Positions 927 through 8,765 of a DNA stretch of 64,000 bases are shown here, piece after piece. The stretch's first letter is position 1, and each line of letters starts with the position of its first letter. The DNA is taken from positions 1 to 64,000 of the forward strand of contig CACMBV010000007.1 in the NCBI GenBank assembly GCA_902612125.1, in the 5' to 3' direction. The stretch is from an uncultured Verrucomicrobiota bacterium (lineage in GTDB: Bacteria > Verrucomicrobiota > Verrucomicrobiia > Opitutales > Seribacteraceae). The notes under the pieces are model-generated. The model saw only the letters and a list, made by a program, of their open reading frames with translations. It was not told where the DNA came from and searched no databases. A program made the translations under genes and the position numbers.

Positions 927-1607
927 TCAAAACGAAAAAAACTCTTGAGAGATAATTACTGCTTTTGCTAATTCAATGTCATCAGGTGAATTAATATCAA
1001 TATTTCTTACAAGTGGAATTTTGATGAAACCCATCTTTCCTCCATATCTAAGTTTGCTACTTTTCAGTTGAAGGTTTGTTGTTACATACAGTCCGCCACT
1101 TTCAACATACACGGAATCAACATCCTGTCTCATAGGGCGATTGTTTATGTCCCAATTCAATGGTTTCACAGAGGAAGTCCATCTTGGTGCCCAATCTTCT
1201 TTTGAAACTGCAAAAACTGAATCAAATTTCTTTGAATGAACCATTTCAATTCCTTTGTTTATGTCATCAGATGAAATGAATGGTGATGTAGCTTGTAGGA
1301 AAACTAGGATGTCAAAATCTACATTTTCTGAAAAATGCACTAAGGCATCGTCGCTTTTACTTTGATCAGTGCAGAGGTTTTCAGGTCTTCTAAGAACCTT
1401 ACAACCTTCTTTTTTTGCTAATCTTGAAATATCATCGCAATTAGTGCTGACCCAGGTTTCTATTGAATCAGAAGCTCTCGAAGCACGACACGAATAAGAT
1501 AGTAATGGAATTCCCCCTAGTTCGACTAAATTCTTATTTTTTATGCCCTTACTTCCTGCACGTGCCGGTATTAAAGTTACGACTTTAGATTCATAATATT
1601 TCACCAA
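927..1607 (-). CDS. neuA: CMP-nonulosonate (acylneuraminate) cytidylyltransferase
   Basis: The 226-residue protein has the nucleotide-binding signature of CMP-sugar synthetases near its start (LIPARAGSKGIKNKNL, residues 12-27), followed by ATSPF and a substrate-binding SGGLYVT segment. Length and order match NeuA/PseF/LegF enzymes, which activate a nine-carbon keto-sugar acid with CTP in the cytoplasm before transfer to a surface glycan. Its start overlaps the end of the NeuB-like gene by 17 bases, so the two are probably translated in a coupled way. Sequence alone does not say whether the substrate is neuraminic, legionaminic or pseudaminic acid. No SGNH esterase domain, as found in some NeuA proteins, is present. 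Confidence 0.9.
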   Translation of the reverse strand: MVKYYESKVVTLIPARAGSKGIKNKNLVELGGIPLLSYSCRASRASDSIETWVSTNCDDISRLAKKEGCKVLRRPENLCTDQSKSDDALVHFSENVDFDILVFLQATSPFISSDDINKGIEMVHSKKFDSVFAVSKEDWAPRWTSSVKPLNWDINNRPMRQDVDSVYVESGGLYVTTNLQLKSSKLRYGGKMGFIKIPLVRNIDINSPDDIELAKAVIISQEFFSF

Positions 1608-3465
1608 AATTCTTCTCTAAAGTTTTCATTGCTTTGTAAGTTCCTAGCCCTTGATGAAGATGCCCACTCCAGATTTCTGTAATCCATGTGTAATTGACAT
1701 CTTTTAGGGTATTGAAAACGGAAATGAAGTCGATTTCTCCATCGAAAATTTGTACACCTTCACCACATAAACCAGATGCATCAGAAATATGTAGGTGGCT
1801 AATAATATCCTTAACTTTCTTCGCATAATCAGACAGAGTAGATTCTTCCAACTTGCATTGCAATTGAGCATGGCAAATGTCAAAAGTCATCTTCGTATTA
1901 GTTTCATTACAAAATCGCACCATATCCGAAGAAGGAGCAAATCCGTATTGGTACCATTGACCTCCTAAATACCAGGGGCGAGGTGGCAGATTTTCAGGCA
2001 AAACATCAATTTGTTCTTTAGGGTATTCAATCTTGTTGAAATTGTAAATTGCTAACTCTATCATTCGCTCATGAGTTGATAGTCTTTCGATACCATGCCT
2101 TGTCGATTCTAGTAAATCCAAACTCATGCCACCCAAGTGAACGACCATCTTTGGCTTGTGAACCGGCCAATTTTTTGAAATTTCCAAAGTCTTCTCGATG
2201 GATTTCTCGATCAGAGTAAGCGATTCATCAACCAACTTTTGATCTTCAGAGCAGATATTAACAAGTTGTCTGTCCATTATTTCTGGAGCGTGTACAATTA
2301 ATTCAGAAAAATCATTTCCTTTTTCAAAAACAACATCTAAATCATTTTGAGAGCAATGAAACTCAAAAACTGGTGGGTTCAGAGGCAAATAATCATCATA
2401 GTCGTGGAATCTACATTTAACCCCCCATTTATTCTTAAACCGAAAATTCTTCCATTCCGAAATTTTGATAATTCTTTCAAAGTCATGTGCGGAGATAAAC
2501 TCACCTGCTGAAATTTCTCTTTCAACAGTTTTGTTTAGATAATTGTCAATTACATGAGGGAAAATTCCTTTGCCAGGAGATTTATATTCAACATTATCGA
2601 TTGACAGTTTTTGTCCAACTTGAATCCTATTCTTTGCAGTAGCACTTTTTGCAAAAAGTTCCTTACACAGTGTTTCTTGTTGATTAACATGTTTATTATG
2701 ATTCAGAGATTGTTCCGTTAATCTTATCTTTTTAACCATTTCCTTGAATTCTTTGGGTAGCATCGAGGCTTTGTGATCTGGACCTTTCTGATTCCTATCA
2801 AATGTGATGTGCTTTTCAATAATTGTAGCTCCCATTGCAACTGCAGCCACTGGTATAAAATCCCCTCGTTCATGTCCAGAATAACCATATCTTTTAGAGA
2901 GAGCGGCTAGGTCACTAAGAAAACTCAAAGACAAAGATTCGTATGAACAAGGATAAGTCGAGTTTGCAAGTAGTAATGAGTAATCTATATTTAATTTTTT
3001 ATAAGATTTCACACACAATTTGATATCTTCCACACTCCACATTCCGGTGGAAATATAAAAAGGAATATTAAATCCTGCACAATGTTCAATCAAGGGAAGA
3101 TTAGTCATATCAGCTGAAGCAATTTTTATTGCAGAAACATCCAATTGCCTCACAAAATTTGCAGAAGATTTATCCATTGGAGTAACTATTAAATCCAGGT
3201 CTAAATCTGAACATTTTTTTCGAATAATTTCATAATCACTTTCAGTCAATTCAACTTCCAAAAGTAAAGGTATCAAATAATCGAAATTCCACTCTGCATT
3301 ATTGGGGTTTTTAATGATAAATTCAGAATATATTTCTTGTAGATTTCTCTTTTGAAACTTTACGGCATCAACACCTGCTTCATGAGAAGCATAAATTAGA
3401 TCAAGAGCAGTTTCAAGATTACCGTTATGATTGATTCCTATTTCTGATATTATTGTTACGCTCAT
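1591..3465 (-). CDS. neuB: Nonulosonate synthase (NeuB family) fused to SAF domain and a second, xylose-isomerase-like TIM barrel
   Basis: Residues 1 to about 265 are a NeuB-type barrel that condenses phosphoenolpyruvate with an N-acylated hexosamine. The motifs SEIGINHNG, VKFQKR, STGMWS, YSGHERG and EKHITFDRNQKGPDH are all present. Residues of roughly 270-335 form a SAF/antifreeze-like domain (PGKGIFPHVI, REISAGEFI), the usual C-terminal cap of NeuB. A further 290 residues follow, with features of an AP-endonuclease-2/xylose-isomerase-like barrel (VVHLGGM, FDICHAQLQC, HLHISDASG, ITEIWSGH). Ordinary NeuB proteins are about 340-360 residues, so this 624-residue form is a fusion. The extra barrel could be an epimerase acting on the precursor sugar; that is inference. 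The start ATG at 3465 follows an AT-rich 90-base spacer. The next gene, neuA-like, overlaps its 3' end. Confidence 0.88.
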   Translation of the reverse strand: MSVTIISEIGINHNGNLETALDLIYASHEAGVDAVKFQKRNLQEIYSEFIIKNPNNAEWNFDYLIPLLLEVELTESDYEIIRKKCSDLDLDLIVTPMDKSSANFVRQLDVSAIKIASADMTNLPLIEHCAGFNIPFYISTGMWSVEDIKLCVKSYKKLNIDYSLLLANSTYPCSYESLSLSFLSDLAALSKRYGYSGHERGDFIPVAAVAMGATIIEKHITFDRNQKGPDHKASMLPKEFKEMVKKIRLTEQSLNHNKHVNQQETLCKELFAKSATAKNRIQVGQKLSIDNVEYKSPGKGIFPHVIDNYLNKTVEREISAGEFISAHDFERIIKISEWKNFRFKNKWGVKCRFHDYDDYLPLNPPVFEFHCSQNDLDVVFEKGNDFSELIVHAPEIMDRQLVNICSEDQKLVDESLTLIEKSIEKTLEISKNWPVHKPKMVVHLGGMSLDLLESTRHGIERLSTHERMIELAIYNFNKIEYPKEQIDVLPENLPPRPWYLGGQWYQYGFAPSSDMVRFCNETNTKMTFDICHAQLQCKLEESTLSDYAKKVKDIISHLHISDASGLCGEGVQIFDGEIDFISVFNTLKDVNYTWITEIWSGHLHQGLGTYKAMKTLEKNFGEIL

Positions 3466-3555: not shown

Positions 3556-4179
3556 TTACTTATTGGTTATATTTAATAAATCTTCTGTCTTAATCTCACC
3601 CAATTCATTATTCCACCATTGAGATTTTAATAACTCTGATATAGTTTCTTCATCAAATCGATAGCGTACAATAGTAGGTGGGCTTCCATAACATATAGCG
3701 TAGGGAGGAACATTTTTAGCGATTATTGCATTAGCTCCAATTATCGCTCCAATTCCAATTTTGACGCCATCTAGAATAATGCATCTTGCTCCTAACCATA
3801 CATCATGCCCTATTGTGACTTGTTCATTTTCAATAATATTTAAATTCAAACCTGTAGACCCAATAGCCTTACACACTACATTATTAATCGAATAGGTACA
3901 CGGTGATGTCGAGTAATGATCGGTAGGGTGACTACCCAGTCCGCCAATCATACATTCTGGTCCGATACTAACAAATCTGCCAACAGAAGCATTCATAATA
4001 TTGGAACTCCTGCTTAAACATGTATACCTACCCAAGGAAGAATTTTTGATATTACAGTCTCTTGAGATTGAGCAGGGACCTTCAATTTTTGATTTGTTAC
4101 AAATTTTCGACTTAACACTCAAATAGCGTGAACCACCAAATGGTCTATATCTCATATAATATCGCAACCTTCTTATCAT
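3556..4179 (-). CDS. Hexapeptide-repeat (left-handed beta-helix) acetyltransferase, CatB/XAT-like
   Basis: The 207 residues show hexapeptide repeats from about residue 25 on (CNKSKIEGPCSISRDCNI and SVGFV-like turns). They also contain the XAT-type region VTIGHDVWLGARCIILDGV followed by GAIIGANAIIAKNVPPYAI and YGSPPTIVRYRF. The SHP turn (GGLGSHPTDHYST) carries the histidine expected as general base in this family. Such enzymes move an acetyl group from acetyl-CoA onto a sugar hydroxyl or amine in the cytoplasm. It starts seven bases after the DUF115/GT42-like gene, so it is in the same operon as the nonulosonate genes and may acetylate that sugar or another residue of the glycan. A role as a serine- or chloramphenicol-type acetyltransferase is less likely in this setting. 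Confidence 0.85.
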   Translation of the reverse strand: MIRRLRYYMRYRPFGGSRYLSVKSKICNKSKIEGPCSISRDCNIKNSSLGRYTCLSRSSNIMNASVGRFVSIGPECMIGGLGSHPTDHYSTSPCTYSINNVVCKAIGSTGLNLNIIENEQVTIGHDVWLGARCIILDGVKIGIGAIIGANAIIAKNVPPYAICYGSPPTIVRYRFDEETISELLKSQWWNNELGEIKTEDLLNITNK

Positions 4180-4185
4180 GTGGAA

Positions 4186-5046
4186 TTAAATAGTTATTGA
4201 TTCAAAAACATCAAGAGAACTATTTGGAGTCGCGTTAAGGATCTTAATGTCGCGATTTTTACAATAAAGGTCAATGTTTCGATAGCATGCCCAACGATTT
4301 GCCAATATATTAAACCATTTCTCAGTGTTAATGTTTCGAAGATGAGGAGTATCATCATGGCCTAGATTAGCTTCATAAAAATGTGGAGTTTCATTTTTAT
4401 GAATACTTTGAAGGTAATCGTGGTCACAGCCAAGAAGAATAATTTTCCTGCATCCGATGAACACAGCCCATTGTATTGCACTAATTAAGACTGTAGAACT
4501 TGGAGGTATAGTCTTGGTGAAATCCCAAGCTCTTGATAACAAGTAAGAATCAGGCGTTCTAAAATGATTTAGGTCGGTCTTGTATATAACAAATGGAAAT
4601 TGGGGTTGACCAAAACTGTTAACATATCTAACGAAGCTGTAATTGTAAGGTGAATATCCAAAAAGGCATGTGAAATCCCAGTCCCATTTAGATATTCCAC
4701 GCAAATATCGATCATAATGATCAAAAGCAAAAGGCTGATGGTTTGGAGCAATTATGTGATAATCAGGTCTAATATCATCGCAGTGTGAACAGTTATAAAA
4801 GTGACTAACCGATATTTTGATTCCATCAGTTAATGAAGTAAAATTAGTATGGTTTATAGATGGACCTGTGCAAAGGATATAACCAGTTTTTTTATGAAGA
4901 TTTTTGAAAGTTCGATTTTTCGAACTGTAATTAATTATCATTGATCTTGTTTCTTTACTAAGCTTAAAGTAACTAAAGTGCTCCATTAGGTATCTTTTAA
5001 AAATGGATGGTAGATTAAATCTGTACGCTTTGAAGAGTATTTTCAT
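4186..5046 (-). CDS. DUF115/GT42-like protein, candidate sialyl- (nonulosonate) transferase
   Basis: I cannot assign this 286-residue protein firmly. Near residue 55 it has GYILCTGPSINHTNF, resembling the GNGPSL nucleotide-binding loop shared by GT42 sialyltransferases (CstII type) and DUF115/MptE-like proteins. Near residue 185 it has SSTVLISAIQWAVFIGCRKIILLGCDHDY, resembling the CstII region where a small-residue loop is followed by ALGYKEIYLSGIDFY. Further on it has a histidine-containing loop (NLGHDDTPH) and a C-terminal IDLYCKNRDIKILNATPNS segment like KLYCLCPNS of CstII. The protein lacks a signal peptide and membrane span. It lies directly upstream of the acetyltransferase and NeuB/NeuA genes, which fits a transferase using the CMP-sugar they make. 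The family resemblance is by eye only, so the function is an inference. Confidence 0.5.
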   Translation of the reverse strand: MKILFKAYRFNLPSIFKRYLMEHFSYFKLSKETRSMIINYSSKNRTFKNLHKKTGYILCTGPSINHTNFTSLTDGIKISVSHFYNCSHCDDIRPDYHIIAPNHQPFAFDHYDRYLRGISKWDWDFTCLFGYSPYNYSFVRYVNSFGQPQFPFVIYKTDLNHFRTPDSYLLSRAWDFTKTIPPSSTVLISAIQWAVFIGCRKIILLGCDHDYLQSIHKNETPHFYEANLGHDDTPHLRNINTEKWFNILANRWACYRNIDLYCKNRDIKILNATPNSSLDVFESITI

Positions 5047-5248: not shown

Positions 5249-5980
5249 ATGTCCTTTATTTCCATCGTAACTGTTGTACTTAATGCCGAAAACACTATTT
5301 TAACAACCTTAGATAGCTTGGTTAGTCAGAATTTTCCCGACTTAGAATGGATAATCATTGATGGCAATTCATCGGATGGAACTTTAGAACTCTTAAAAAA
5401 GCACAAAAAGCACATTAATCATGTAATTTCCGAACCCGACAATGGCATCTACGATGCCATGAACAAAGGAATTAAGCATGCTAAGGGTGAATACATAATT
5501 TTTTTAAATGCAGGCGATTCTTTTTTTGATAAGAATGCTCTGACACGAATTAATTTTTCAACCAAGTCAGATCTTATAGTTGGGAACTTGCTCTTTATGG
5601 ACAGTAACACCATTAAGAAATCACCTGAAAATCTAGACCGTTGTTACATGTTGAAAAATACATTACCCCATCAAGCTACCTTTTTTCACCGAAGAGTATT
5701 CGAAAATTTTGGGCACTTTGATACTTCTTACAGGATTGCCGGAGATTATGAGTTTTTCGCCCGGATGGTCAATTCTGGTGAGCCCAGTTATTGCTTTCAT
5801 CCGGAGATTATAGCTAAATTTGCCGGCGGAGGCATCAGTTCAGATCCTAAATACCGAAACCTTAGAAAAAGAGAAAATCATAGAATTCGCTGGGAGTATT
5901 ATCCAAAATATAGATTAACTTTGAAGTCTATGAGGCAAGGGGTGAGAAATCTTTTTTGTTCAACTTCGCTATCCAACTAG
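5249..5980 (+). CDS. Family 2 glycosyltransferase, WcaE-like
   Basis: The 243 residues begin with the GT2 pattern [14 protein letters not shown] and continue with [37 protein letters not shown] and FLNAGDSFF. The last contains the acidic triad (here N-A-G-D) that replaces DxD in colanic-acid WcaE-type transferases. [12 protein letters not shown] and [10 protein letters not shown] match the acceptor-side region of the same group. It acts at the cytoplasmic face of the membrane on a lipid-linked glycan. This is the only plus-strand gene in the first 12.5 kb. It is divergent from the DUF115/GT42-like gene across a 202-base AT-rich spacer that should hold both promoters, and its last four bases overlap the end of the facing GT10 gene. 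Confidence 0.9.
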
Positions 5981-6900
5981 AGGAACGAAAATTTTCCAGA
6001 TTGTTTGATTGATTTAATCCCCCATCGGCTTTTGTTGCGGCGAAAGACTCGCTTGTGGGGACGATTAAAAATTTCACTCAAAAAGTCTTTGAATACATTT
6101 TCATTTAGTTCATGGGGTTCTATGCCATTTTTGAACCAAGGTTCTTTGATCATTGTAAGATATTGATCATCATTAGAATCCAATTCACGGACGAGGTTAA
6201 CCAGTCCGTCAATATTCTGAAAATCATGGCAATTAATGAAAGCCTTTGGATTAAAATGTTTGGTAATAGTCGGATCGCCCCAGTATATGGGAATGGCGTT
6301 GGACTGTGCAGCTTGTGCAAACTTTTCAGTCAAGTATCCAGGATGCGAATAATTCTCTATGGCTAGTACAAATTTATAATTCGACTGGAAGGCGATTTTA
6401 TCGTCTACAGGACCACCCACATTGTTATTCCACCGCCCACCACAATCAACACGCTTATATTTTGAGATAGCAGTGAAAATGGTTTCCCGTTCAGGTGCAC
6501 TATTCTTGGTGTTGGACATTACATAAGCACAGAATCCCTTTTTTGTTCTAAACACTTCTTCGGGATCTGGCCTTGGTTCCAAAAAAGTAGAATAGGCCTC
6601 CTTGTACAGCTTGATAAGGGGAAGCCTGCAGTAGCGGTCGCCAAATTGAATATGGTCAAATCCCATAGCATAATCGCAAATATTAAAATCCGGTGTCACA
6701 CACTCACCAGTAACAAATATTCTTATACCGTCGTACTTGACGACCTCTTTGCCCATGCACGAGTGAAAGATGTAATCAGCTTTTCGGGGGTGAACCATTT
6801 TGAATTGGTAACGATCTTGAATTAGAGCCAGAACTGCATCAATAAATGCCGTATTTTTTCCAGCGTCTACAATAGCAATATGCTTAACTGGCTTAGTCAC
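5977..6900 (-). CDS. GT10 family alpha-(1,3/4)-fucosyltransferase-type enzyme
   Basis: The C-terminal half carries the GT10 signature in order: [55 protein letters not shown] and [22 protein letters not shown]. These match the GDP-fucose binding region of bacterial (Helicobacter FucT) and animal fucosyltransferases. The N-terminal half ([21 protein letters not shown]) fits the acceptor-binding half. Length 307 is near that of short bacterial members. It ends one base before the FkbM gene start on the minus strand, so it belongs to the long glycan operon. It probably adds fucose, or a related deoxyhexose, to the surface glycan. GDP-fucose synthesis genes are not in the window. Confidence 0.88.
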
Positions 6901-7727: not shown

Positions 7728-8765
7728 CTAAACACGAACATTTTTTATAATGGCAATGCTTTTGTTTCTTATTTTTTCAAATAATGTAACAATTAATTTG
7801 TTTGGAATTTTTCTTAGTTCATTACGGCTGAGAAGAGCCTTATTGTGAGAATTTAAAGTTTTTCCTTTTAAATGTCTCTGCTCAATTATTTTTGAAATTG
7901 TCGCATAAAAATTATACTTGTCTAAAACGAACTGTCTAGATTTGTTAATGTGTTTGAGCCTCTTTTCGTATTCGTTGTTTTTCATTGCGATACTGATTAT
8001 TTGGGAGCTTTTCACTGGATCATTAATATCAATCTCGATGAAACTCTCTGATGGAAAGTATTCACTTGCATTGGGAGCACCGTAATAAAACGGTAGGGTA
8101 AGTCCCAGGAAGGCATCGGAGAGCTTTTCGGTCCACCAGTGATCACAACGATGATTCTCTACAGCGATATGATATTTGTATGAATCGAGTGCATCAGCTT
8201 TATCTTTAATTTCACGAATCCCTCTGCCAAAGCGATCGAGTTGAGGAAGCTTTTTATGGAGCTCCTCGATAAAAAAATTACGCTTTTTGTGAAGTGTGTG
8301 GGTGTGGTTCTTTGAAGAGGTGACGGTAGAAATACTCAGTGTTTTTTCTTGGGGAAGTTTTTGAGCAATTTGATCGTAGGATCTAGTAGTACCATAATAC
8401 CAAAAAAGAGCTGGTTGGGAGTGGATTTTCCCGGGATGTTTGAGTGCCCAATCCTCCTGTCCTGTGAGTACATAGCCGAATTGCCGGATGTAGGCAGATT
8501 CGTAAGTTTTAATAGAGGAGGGTTCAAGAGTCACAAGAAGAGTGTTTTGGGAAGCACACTTAAGATCGATTTTTCCGACAAAATCATCGTATACAACGAG
8601 CCAGTCATAATTTTGTTCATTGCCAAATACAAATCGGCATGAGCCCCATTCGGGTGTATTTTTAGGGAATCCTTGGTTTTTAAAGGAGGAAGGTTTATCC
8701 GCAATCAAATGACTGCTCTTAGTGATGACCTTAACCAGAATTTTATTTTTATCTAAAGTATTCAA
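7728..8765 (-). CDS. GT10-like fucosyltransferase family protein
   Basis: This 345-residue protein shares the GT10 C-terminal layout in a diverged form: FFIEELHKKLPQLDRFGRG, DSYKYHIAVENHRCDHWWTEKLSDAFLG and TLPFYYGAPNASEYFPSESFIEID. The YKYHIAVEN and EKLSDAFLG segments correspond to YKFVLAIEN and TEKFAQAA of the neighbouring GT10 gene. The N-terminal half (WLVVYDDF, GYVLTGQEDWALKHP) resembles the acceptor half of the same family. It is a second, distinct member in the operon, probably giving a different linkage or acting on a different acceptor. Its end lies 17 bases upstream of the FkbM start. Confidence 0.78.
   Translation of the reverse strand: MNTLDKNKILVKVITKSSHLIADKPSSFKNQGFPKNTPEWGSCRFVFGNEQNYDWLVVYDDFVGKIDLKCASQNTLLVTLEPSSIKTYESAYIRQFGYVLTGQEDWALKHPGKIHSQPALFWYYGTTRSYDQIAQKLPQEKTLSISTVTSSKNHTHTLHKKRNFFIEELHKKLPQLDRFGRGIREIKDKADALDSYKYHIAVENHRCDHWWTEKLSDAFLGLTLPFYYGAPNASEYFPSESFIEIDINDPVKSSQIISIAMKNNEYEKRLKHINKSRQFVLDKYNFYATISKIIEQRHLKGKTLNSHNKALLSRNELRKIPNKLIVTLFEKIRNKSIAIIKNVRV

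Follow-up and report, generated by a model that had tools for sequence, protein, structure and literature searches.

Which protein uses the activated sugar of a nonulosonate pathway is the question raised by a gene cluster of an uncultured member of the Seribacteraceae (Opitutales, Verrucomicrobiota), located on a 64,000-nucleotide stretch of DNA that is here called the window (GCA_902612125.1, contig CACMBV010000007.1, positions 1 to 64,000). Genes for nonulosonate synthesis are common beyond pathogens, but the enzyme responsible for attaching the sugar has rarely been identified. For legionaminic acid in protein glycosylation, one paper states that no organism had so far yielded the transferase (PMC6137143), and no enzymes of the families GT38, GT42, GT52, and GT80 were found in Bacillus subtilis (PMC7439481). 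In the window, the candidate is a gene next to homologs of neuB and neuA, whose product, a stand-alone member of the DUF115 superfamily (PF01973) with a predicted fold of the GT42/CstII type, is very probably a cytoplasmic CMP-nonulosonate transferase. The strongest evidence for a transferase is genomic and comes from a widespread clade of homologs that are linked to NeuB.

The candidate gene encodes 286 amino acids from an ATG start codon on the minus strand, and the three motifs that had drawn attention to it are all present: GYILCTGPSINHTNF (residues 55-69), SAIQWAVFIGCRKIILLG (residues 189-206), and LYCKNRDIKILNATPNS (residues 260-276). Read in the direction of transcription, it directly precedes the genes encoding an acetyltransferase, NeuB, and NeuA, as originally noted. 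These four genes form a tight run on the same strand, in which the DUF115 gene comes first, separated by a gap of only 6 bases from that of the hexapeptide acyltransferase, which is followed by neuB and an overlapping neuA. Pfam identifies two GT10 proteins, one GT2 protein, one GT4-like protein, and two FkbM methyltransferases around and upstream of the DUF115 gene, which therefore belongs to a surface-glycan cluster. The original prediction was of a sialyl or nonulosonate transferase. The resemblance to a CMP-sugar transferase was borne out, but the assignment to sialic acid was not, as the NeuB and NeuA of the window reach none of the specific NCBIfam cut-offs; the best match of NeuA, PseF, scores 90.9 bits and remains under its cut-off of 205.7. 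In three distant genomes, including that of the window, the neighbor of the DUF115 gene encodes a NeuB with a C-terminal xylose-isomerase-like TIM barrel (see table).

Features of the window and of the loci compared with it (positions refer to the window unless a locus is named)
Feature	Position	Strand	Basis
DUF115/GT42-like protein, stand-alone, predicted CMP-nonulosonate transferase	4186..5046	-	PF01973 35.7 bits; AlphaFold; Foldseek; NeuB-linked clade
Hexapeptide-repeat acyltransferase, probably modifying the sugar or its precursor	3556..4179	-	Pfam Hexapep 1.6e-11
NeuB-type nonulosonate synthase + SAF, fused to xylose-isomerase-like TIM barrel	1591..3465	-	Pfam NeuB 9.4e-64, SAF 8.9e-07, AP_endonuc_2 1.1e-15
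NeuA-type CMP-sugar synthetase (cytidylyltransferase)	927..1607	-	Pfam CTP_transf_3 1.5e-24
GT10 (FucT-like) glycosyltransferase, same cluster	5977..6900	-	Pfam FucT_N 4.9e-26, Glyco_transf_10 3.9e-24
Second GT10-like protein	7728..8765	-	Pfam Glyco_transf_10 2.7e-11
NeuB with C-terminal xylose-isomerase-like TIM barrel, other genomes	L046:5617-7863; L032:1912-3240		
Maf-type DUF115 loci in the genome of the window	G000:C6:91607-94397; G000:C32:4151-4663 (L075, L074)		
Cassettes of NeuA-like cytidylyltransferase and HpcH/HpaI aldolase	L018:6544-8917; L015:361-3669; L014:7080-9470; L016:7144-9933; also L102-L106		
Very large DUF115 proteins near NeuA-like genes	L018:753-3920 (1055 aa); L030:6003-8702 (899 aa)		
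NeuA with C-terminal HAD phosphatase	L028:5020-6222		Pfam
Tandem DUF115 genes in Helicobacter	L058:6973-8798; L059:6926-8852; L060:6122-8864		

The only Pfam family matched by the protein is MptE-like/DUF115 (PF01973), whose curated cut-off it barely exceeds (35.7 vs. 34.6 bits); because this cut-off is passed, the layout of the motifs is more than chance. NCBIfam yields no match. Among the members of its clade, all 25 match PF01973 at E ≤ 10 (best E 1.1e-11), and none of the 25 lists a match to PF06002 (CST-I, GT42) at the same threshold. A PF06002 scan of 27 genomes returned no matches, its controls included, and is uninformative on absence. Judged by its sequence, the protein is not a formal member of GT42, because a match to PF06002 is absent, the phosphate-binding tyrosines of CstII are missing, and its catalytic histidine has no clean counterpart in the alignment. 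The proposed CMP-sugar transferase with a CstII-like architecture is therefore supported in layout and fold but not as a GT42 enzyme by sequence, where Pfam assigns it to MptE-like/DUF115, the family of Maf.

Like CstII and CstI of Campylobacter jejuni, the window protein stands alone, has a similar size, and is encoded beside NeuB and NeuA. It also shares their N-terminal GxGPS loop, the strand G-x-x-x-I-x-L-x-G-x-D, and a comparable C-terminal segment (IKILNATPNSSL vs. IKLYCLCPNSLL), but the GNGPS of CstII has become CTGPS, and there is an additional helical region of about 50 residues at the N terminus. The wider family has retained GxGPS, the G and D of the LLGxD strand, H222-F223, N271, L278, and F281. 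The invariance of LLGCDHD is in part an artefact, because this string served as a fetch pattern and varies among the sequences fetched otherwise; its DHD resembles a DxD motif, which is absent from clade members not fetched by LLGCDHD (e.g., DMN in L023).

The catalytic and CMP-binding residues of CstII, whose superposition had been suggested as a check, are only partly recovered by alignment. S12, G152, and D154 are conserved, and N9 and N31 correspond to T or N and to S or N, respectively, which makes a CMP loop plausible for the window protein. By contrast, Tyr156, Tyr162, and His188 have no clear counterparts. The two tyrosines, which lie near the donor phosphate, align with D210 and with a gap. 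H222 of the family motif HFY aligns with His184 of CstII; the proven catalytic base, His188 (PMC4202792), follows four residues further on, in a variable column. H229, H230, and H235 are conserved in part only. A direct mapping of His188 to H222 was considered and dropped as unproven; the near-invariant H222-F223-Y224 may nevertheless be the site of the catalytic residue.

The AlphaFold2 model of the window protein, which was computed with 25 aligned relatives as input (pLDDT 87.7, pTM 0.87), has its best Foldseek match in the PDB with CstII in complex with a CMP-sugar analogue (1ro7; E 2.6e-4, probability 1.00, TM 0.47/0.54). MptE is second (8sd5; E 1.2e-3, probability 1.00, TM 0.36/0.45), the next credible match is human ST8SiaIII (probability 0.99), and ST6GALNAC2 reaches a probability of 0.84. 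An independent model of the homolog L036 matches CstII (5.1e-6), a Pasteurella GT42 enzyme (7.4e-6), and MptE (4.0e-5), with nothing else below 1e-3. CstII therefore ranks ahead of MptE, a best match to which would have counted against the original prediction. The TM-scores with CstII over both models are moderate (0.44-0.54) at about 15% identity, which is consistent with a predicted Rossmann fold of the CstII type that would be of the same kind but not a close copy. Compared to CstII, the fold matches with the GT29 sialyltransferases of animals are weaker, and a sequence match with them is lacking.

The sequence link to GT42 varies with the breadth of the profile, whereas the fold link does not. 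Searches of the PDB with a 34-sequence family profile place CstII first (3.6e-06), before Maf (4.3e-4) and MptE (9.4e-3), and a 15-sequence profile also has a GT42 sialyltransferase as its first match (E 0.0009). A narrow profile of 25 sequences reaches CstI alone among GT42 (E 0.0068), a 23-sequence profile (A5) finds no GT42 match in the PDB, the single sequence of the window protein finds no PDB match, and a one-sequence HHalign comparison with CstII gives low probabilities (21-37). Because single sequences and narrow profiles are weak or blind, the relationship to GT42 is to be regarded as remote at this level.

These comparisons make it extremely unlikely that the protein is an MptE-type 6-hydroxymethylpterin pyrophosphokinase placed in the cluster by chance. 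The window protein and archaeal MptE share a Pfam family, whose MptE-like profile is the only one that the window protein matches, and 8sd5 is its second-best fold match with a probability of 1.00. However, CstII is the better match both by fold, in either model, and by profile, and the motifs TDLDG, HxHGDN, and FTDGDR, which are present in both archaeal MptE proteins (2/2), occur in none of 39 DUF115 proteins. The window protein differs from MptE also by an additional C-terminal part that contains the HFY motif and NAT...LDVF. Moreover, two genomes of Methanomicrobiales encode a separate, short MptE in addition to a NeuB-adjacent member of the clade, and a linkage to NeuB would be senseless for a pterin kinase. 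The protein is distinct from MptE, and for the NeuB-linked clade the automatic label 'MptE-like' is misleading.

The genomic evidence for a CMP-nonulosonate transferase emerges from the relatives of the window protein. Close relatives are few among 384 genomes of the same class and 388 genomes of the same phylum, and all three of them (52%, 38%, and 32% identity) adjoin NeuB and NeuA. When 84,980 species genomes were scanned with nothing but protein patterns of the DUF115 ORF family, taken from a three-sequence alignment, 27 loci were recovered; because these loci were fetched by protein patterns alone, their gene neighborhood constitutes independent evidence. They belong to Verrucomicrobiota, Planctomycetota, Chloroflexota, Armatimonadota, Bdellovibrionota, Helicobacter, and others, including several deltaproteobacterial lineages, one cyanobacterium, and two methanogens. 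Citrifermentans bremense (L049) and Dolichospermum planctonicum (L046) are among the species that encode a homolog. Outside Helicobacter, 16 of the 24 loci have NeuB within 6 kb, without exception on the same strand, and 19 have NeuA or NeuB. Random placement with four neuB genes allowed per genome predicts about 0.4 of 24 (maximum 6 in 200,000 draws), an expectation that leaves the general clustering of glycan genes out of account. For this reason, the direct adjacency of the two genes matters: DUF115 and neuB overlap, touch, or are less than about 100 bp apart in about a dozen genomes.

The acetyltransferase is another recurrent neighbor. In the window and in L034, L035, L038, L039, L040, and L041, no more than 200 bp separate it from the DUF115 gene, and most members of the window's subclade have a hexapeptide acetyltransferase next door. 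Four loci (L040, L050, L053, and L056) have no NeuA or NeuB in view, but L040 still has the acetyltransferase. The locus of the closest ortholog (L034) retains the acetyltransferase and a GT10 protein; its NeuB is of a different type. A relative of the second GT10-like protein of the window is encoded there 322 bp from the DUF115 gene, on the opposite strand.

In a tree of 53 DUF115 domains, which was obtained with a quick method and contains some long branches, the window protein falls into a clade of 24 rows (SH-aLRT 98), of which 19 are linked to NeuB, two to NeuA only, and three to neither or truncated. The NeuB labels cluster more tightly than in any of 500 shuffles. The clade spans nine NCBI phyla, which contradicts the idea of a sialyltransferase subgroup of Verrucomicrobiota; methanogens and a cyanobacterium are among its members, which represent at least nine phyla. 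Maf proteins and DUF115 proteins linked to an aldolase are found on the opposite side of the tree, although the long branches render the placement of Maf tentative.

The biochemical precedent comes from Maf proteins (pfam01973), which resemble Cst-II in structure and use CMP-sugars as donors for the transfer of nonulosonic acids (PMC11339370), so that the PF01973 domain is already tied to CMP-nonulosonates. The window protein and Maf (Maf_flag10, PF01973) have in common the Pfam domain, the Cst-II-like fold (PMC11339370), and presumably the class of donor. However, Maf is a three-domain protein that acts on flagellin, whereas the window protein has a single domain and is part of a glycan cluster. 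That it is a Maf-type enzyme transferring nonulosonate directly onto flagellin (protein O-glycosylation) is very unlikely, even though the genome is rich in flagellin-type genes (17 Flagellin_N matches in 2.4 Mb). The flagellins are encoded on other contigs, and the window cluster contains several glycan glycosyltransferases but no flagellar gene. The protein lacks the N- and C-terminal domains of Maf and, with 286 amino acids, is clearly distinct from the two Maf-type proteins of the same genome (510 and 622 amino acids), both of which are located on flagellar contigs (C6 and C32).

One of these Maf-type proteins is encoded on a flagellin contig; the other is found on a flagellar contig, where a PseB-like gene and a second NeuB are its neighbors. 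The genome thus seems to operate two separate nonulosonate systems, for flagellin and for the glycan cluster. The earlier assertion that no other protein obviously uses the CMP-sugar is therefore valid within the cluster but fails at the level of the genome. As the two Maf-type proteins could also consume the CMP-nonulosonate, their presence weakens the case for the window protein as the transferase.

A related question concerns the donor, which might be another CMP-activated 3-deoxy-ulosonate (Kdo- or Kdn-like) used by a glycosyltransferase of the same CstII-type fold and not strictly a nonulosonate. This is unlikely, because the neighboring gene encodes a full-length synthase of the NeuB family (Pfam 9.4e-64), and the products known from this family are acids with nine carbons. 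It would nevertheless be in line with the NeuB and NeuA of the window, whose subtype is not fixed by NCBIfam, with the acceptance of CMP-Kdo by a Maf enzyme (PMC11339370), and with a sister group of DUF115 proteins whose visible neighborhood contains a NeuA-like cytidylyltransferase and an HpcH/HpaI aldolase but no NeuB.

Such cassettes of cytidylyltransferase and aldolase are present in seven Verrucomicrobiota genomes and are about 60% identical among them. They are usually accompanied by a DUF115 or a YhcH-like (DUF386) protein, with no NeuB in view, and look like an aldolase-made CMP-ulosonate route, for which we know of no described pathway. Very large DUF115 proteins with an apparent GT2-type N-terminal part also occur near NeuA-like genes (see table).

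If the protein of the window is indeed a CMP-nonulosonate transferase, NeuB would form a nonulosonic acid by condensing PEP with a precursor of the hexosamine type; this sugar or its precursor would be decorated by the hexapeptide acyltransferase, and NeuA would activate the nonulosonic acid with CTP. The DUF115 protein would then transfer the sugar from CMP to a hydroxyl group of a surface glycan of the O-antigen or capsule type. By analogy with GT42, the reaction may be an inverting, metal-independent single displacement with a histidine as base.

In the literature searched, which covered few subscription journals, no paper was found that treats stand-alone DUF115 proteins encoded next to NeuB as transferases. 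The surprising parts are the breadth of the clade across phyla and its wrong automatic label. The NeuB-linked clade may represent a distinct family of CMP-nonulosonate transferases apart from GT42 and Maf, ranging from Verrucomicrobiota to cyanobacteria, Chloroflexota, and methanogenic archaea, with the fold of CstII but different phosphate and base residues, and with sister DUF115 groups that act on other CMP-ulosonates, one of them aldolase-made; we consider the arguments for and against this broader proposal evenly balanced. If it is true, the clade would provide the transferase that many environmental and archaeal pathways for sialic-acid-like sugars lack. In any case, it offers a named candidate in at least nine phyla, cultured species included.

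Searches of plasmids and phages by tblastn and three scans of viral contigs found no relative of the window protein, and BFVD contains MptE-like phage proteins with the same fold. Helicobacter harbors tandem DUF115 genes with no NeuA or NeuB within 8 kb. In L028, a NeuA with a C-terminal HAD phosphatase is encoded beside NeuB and DUF115, and similar proteins of about 400 amino acids are present in L027, L029, L037, L045, and L048 (phmmer), hinting at a route via a nonulosonate 9-phosphate.
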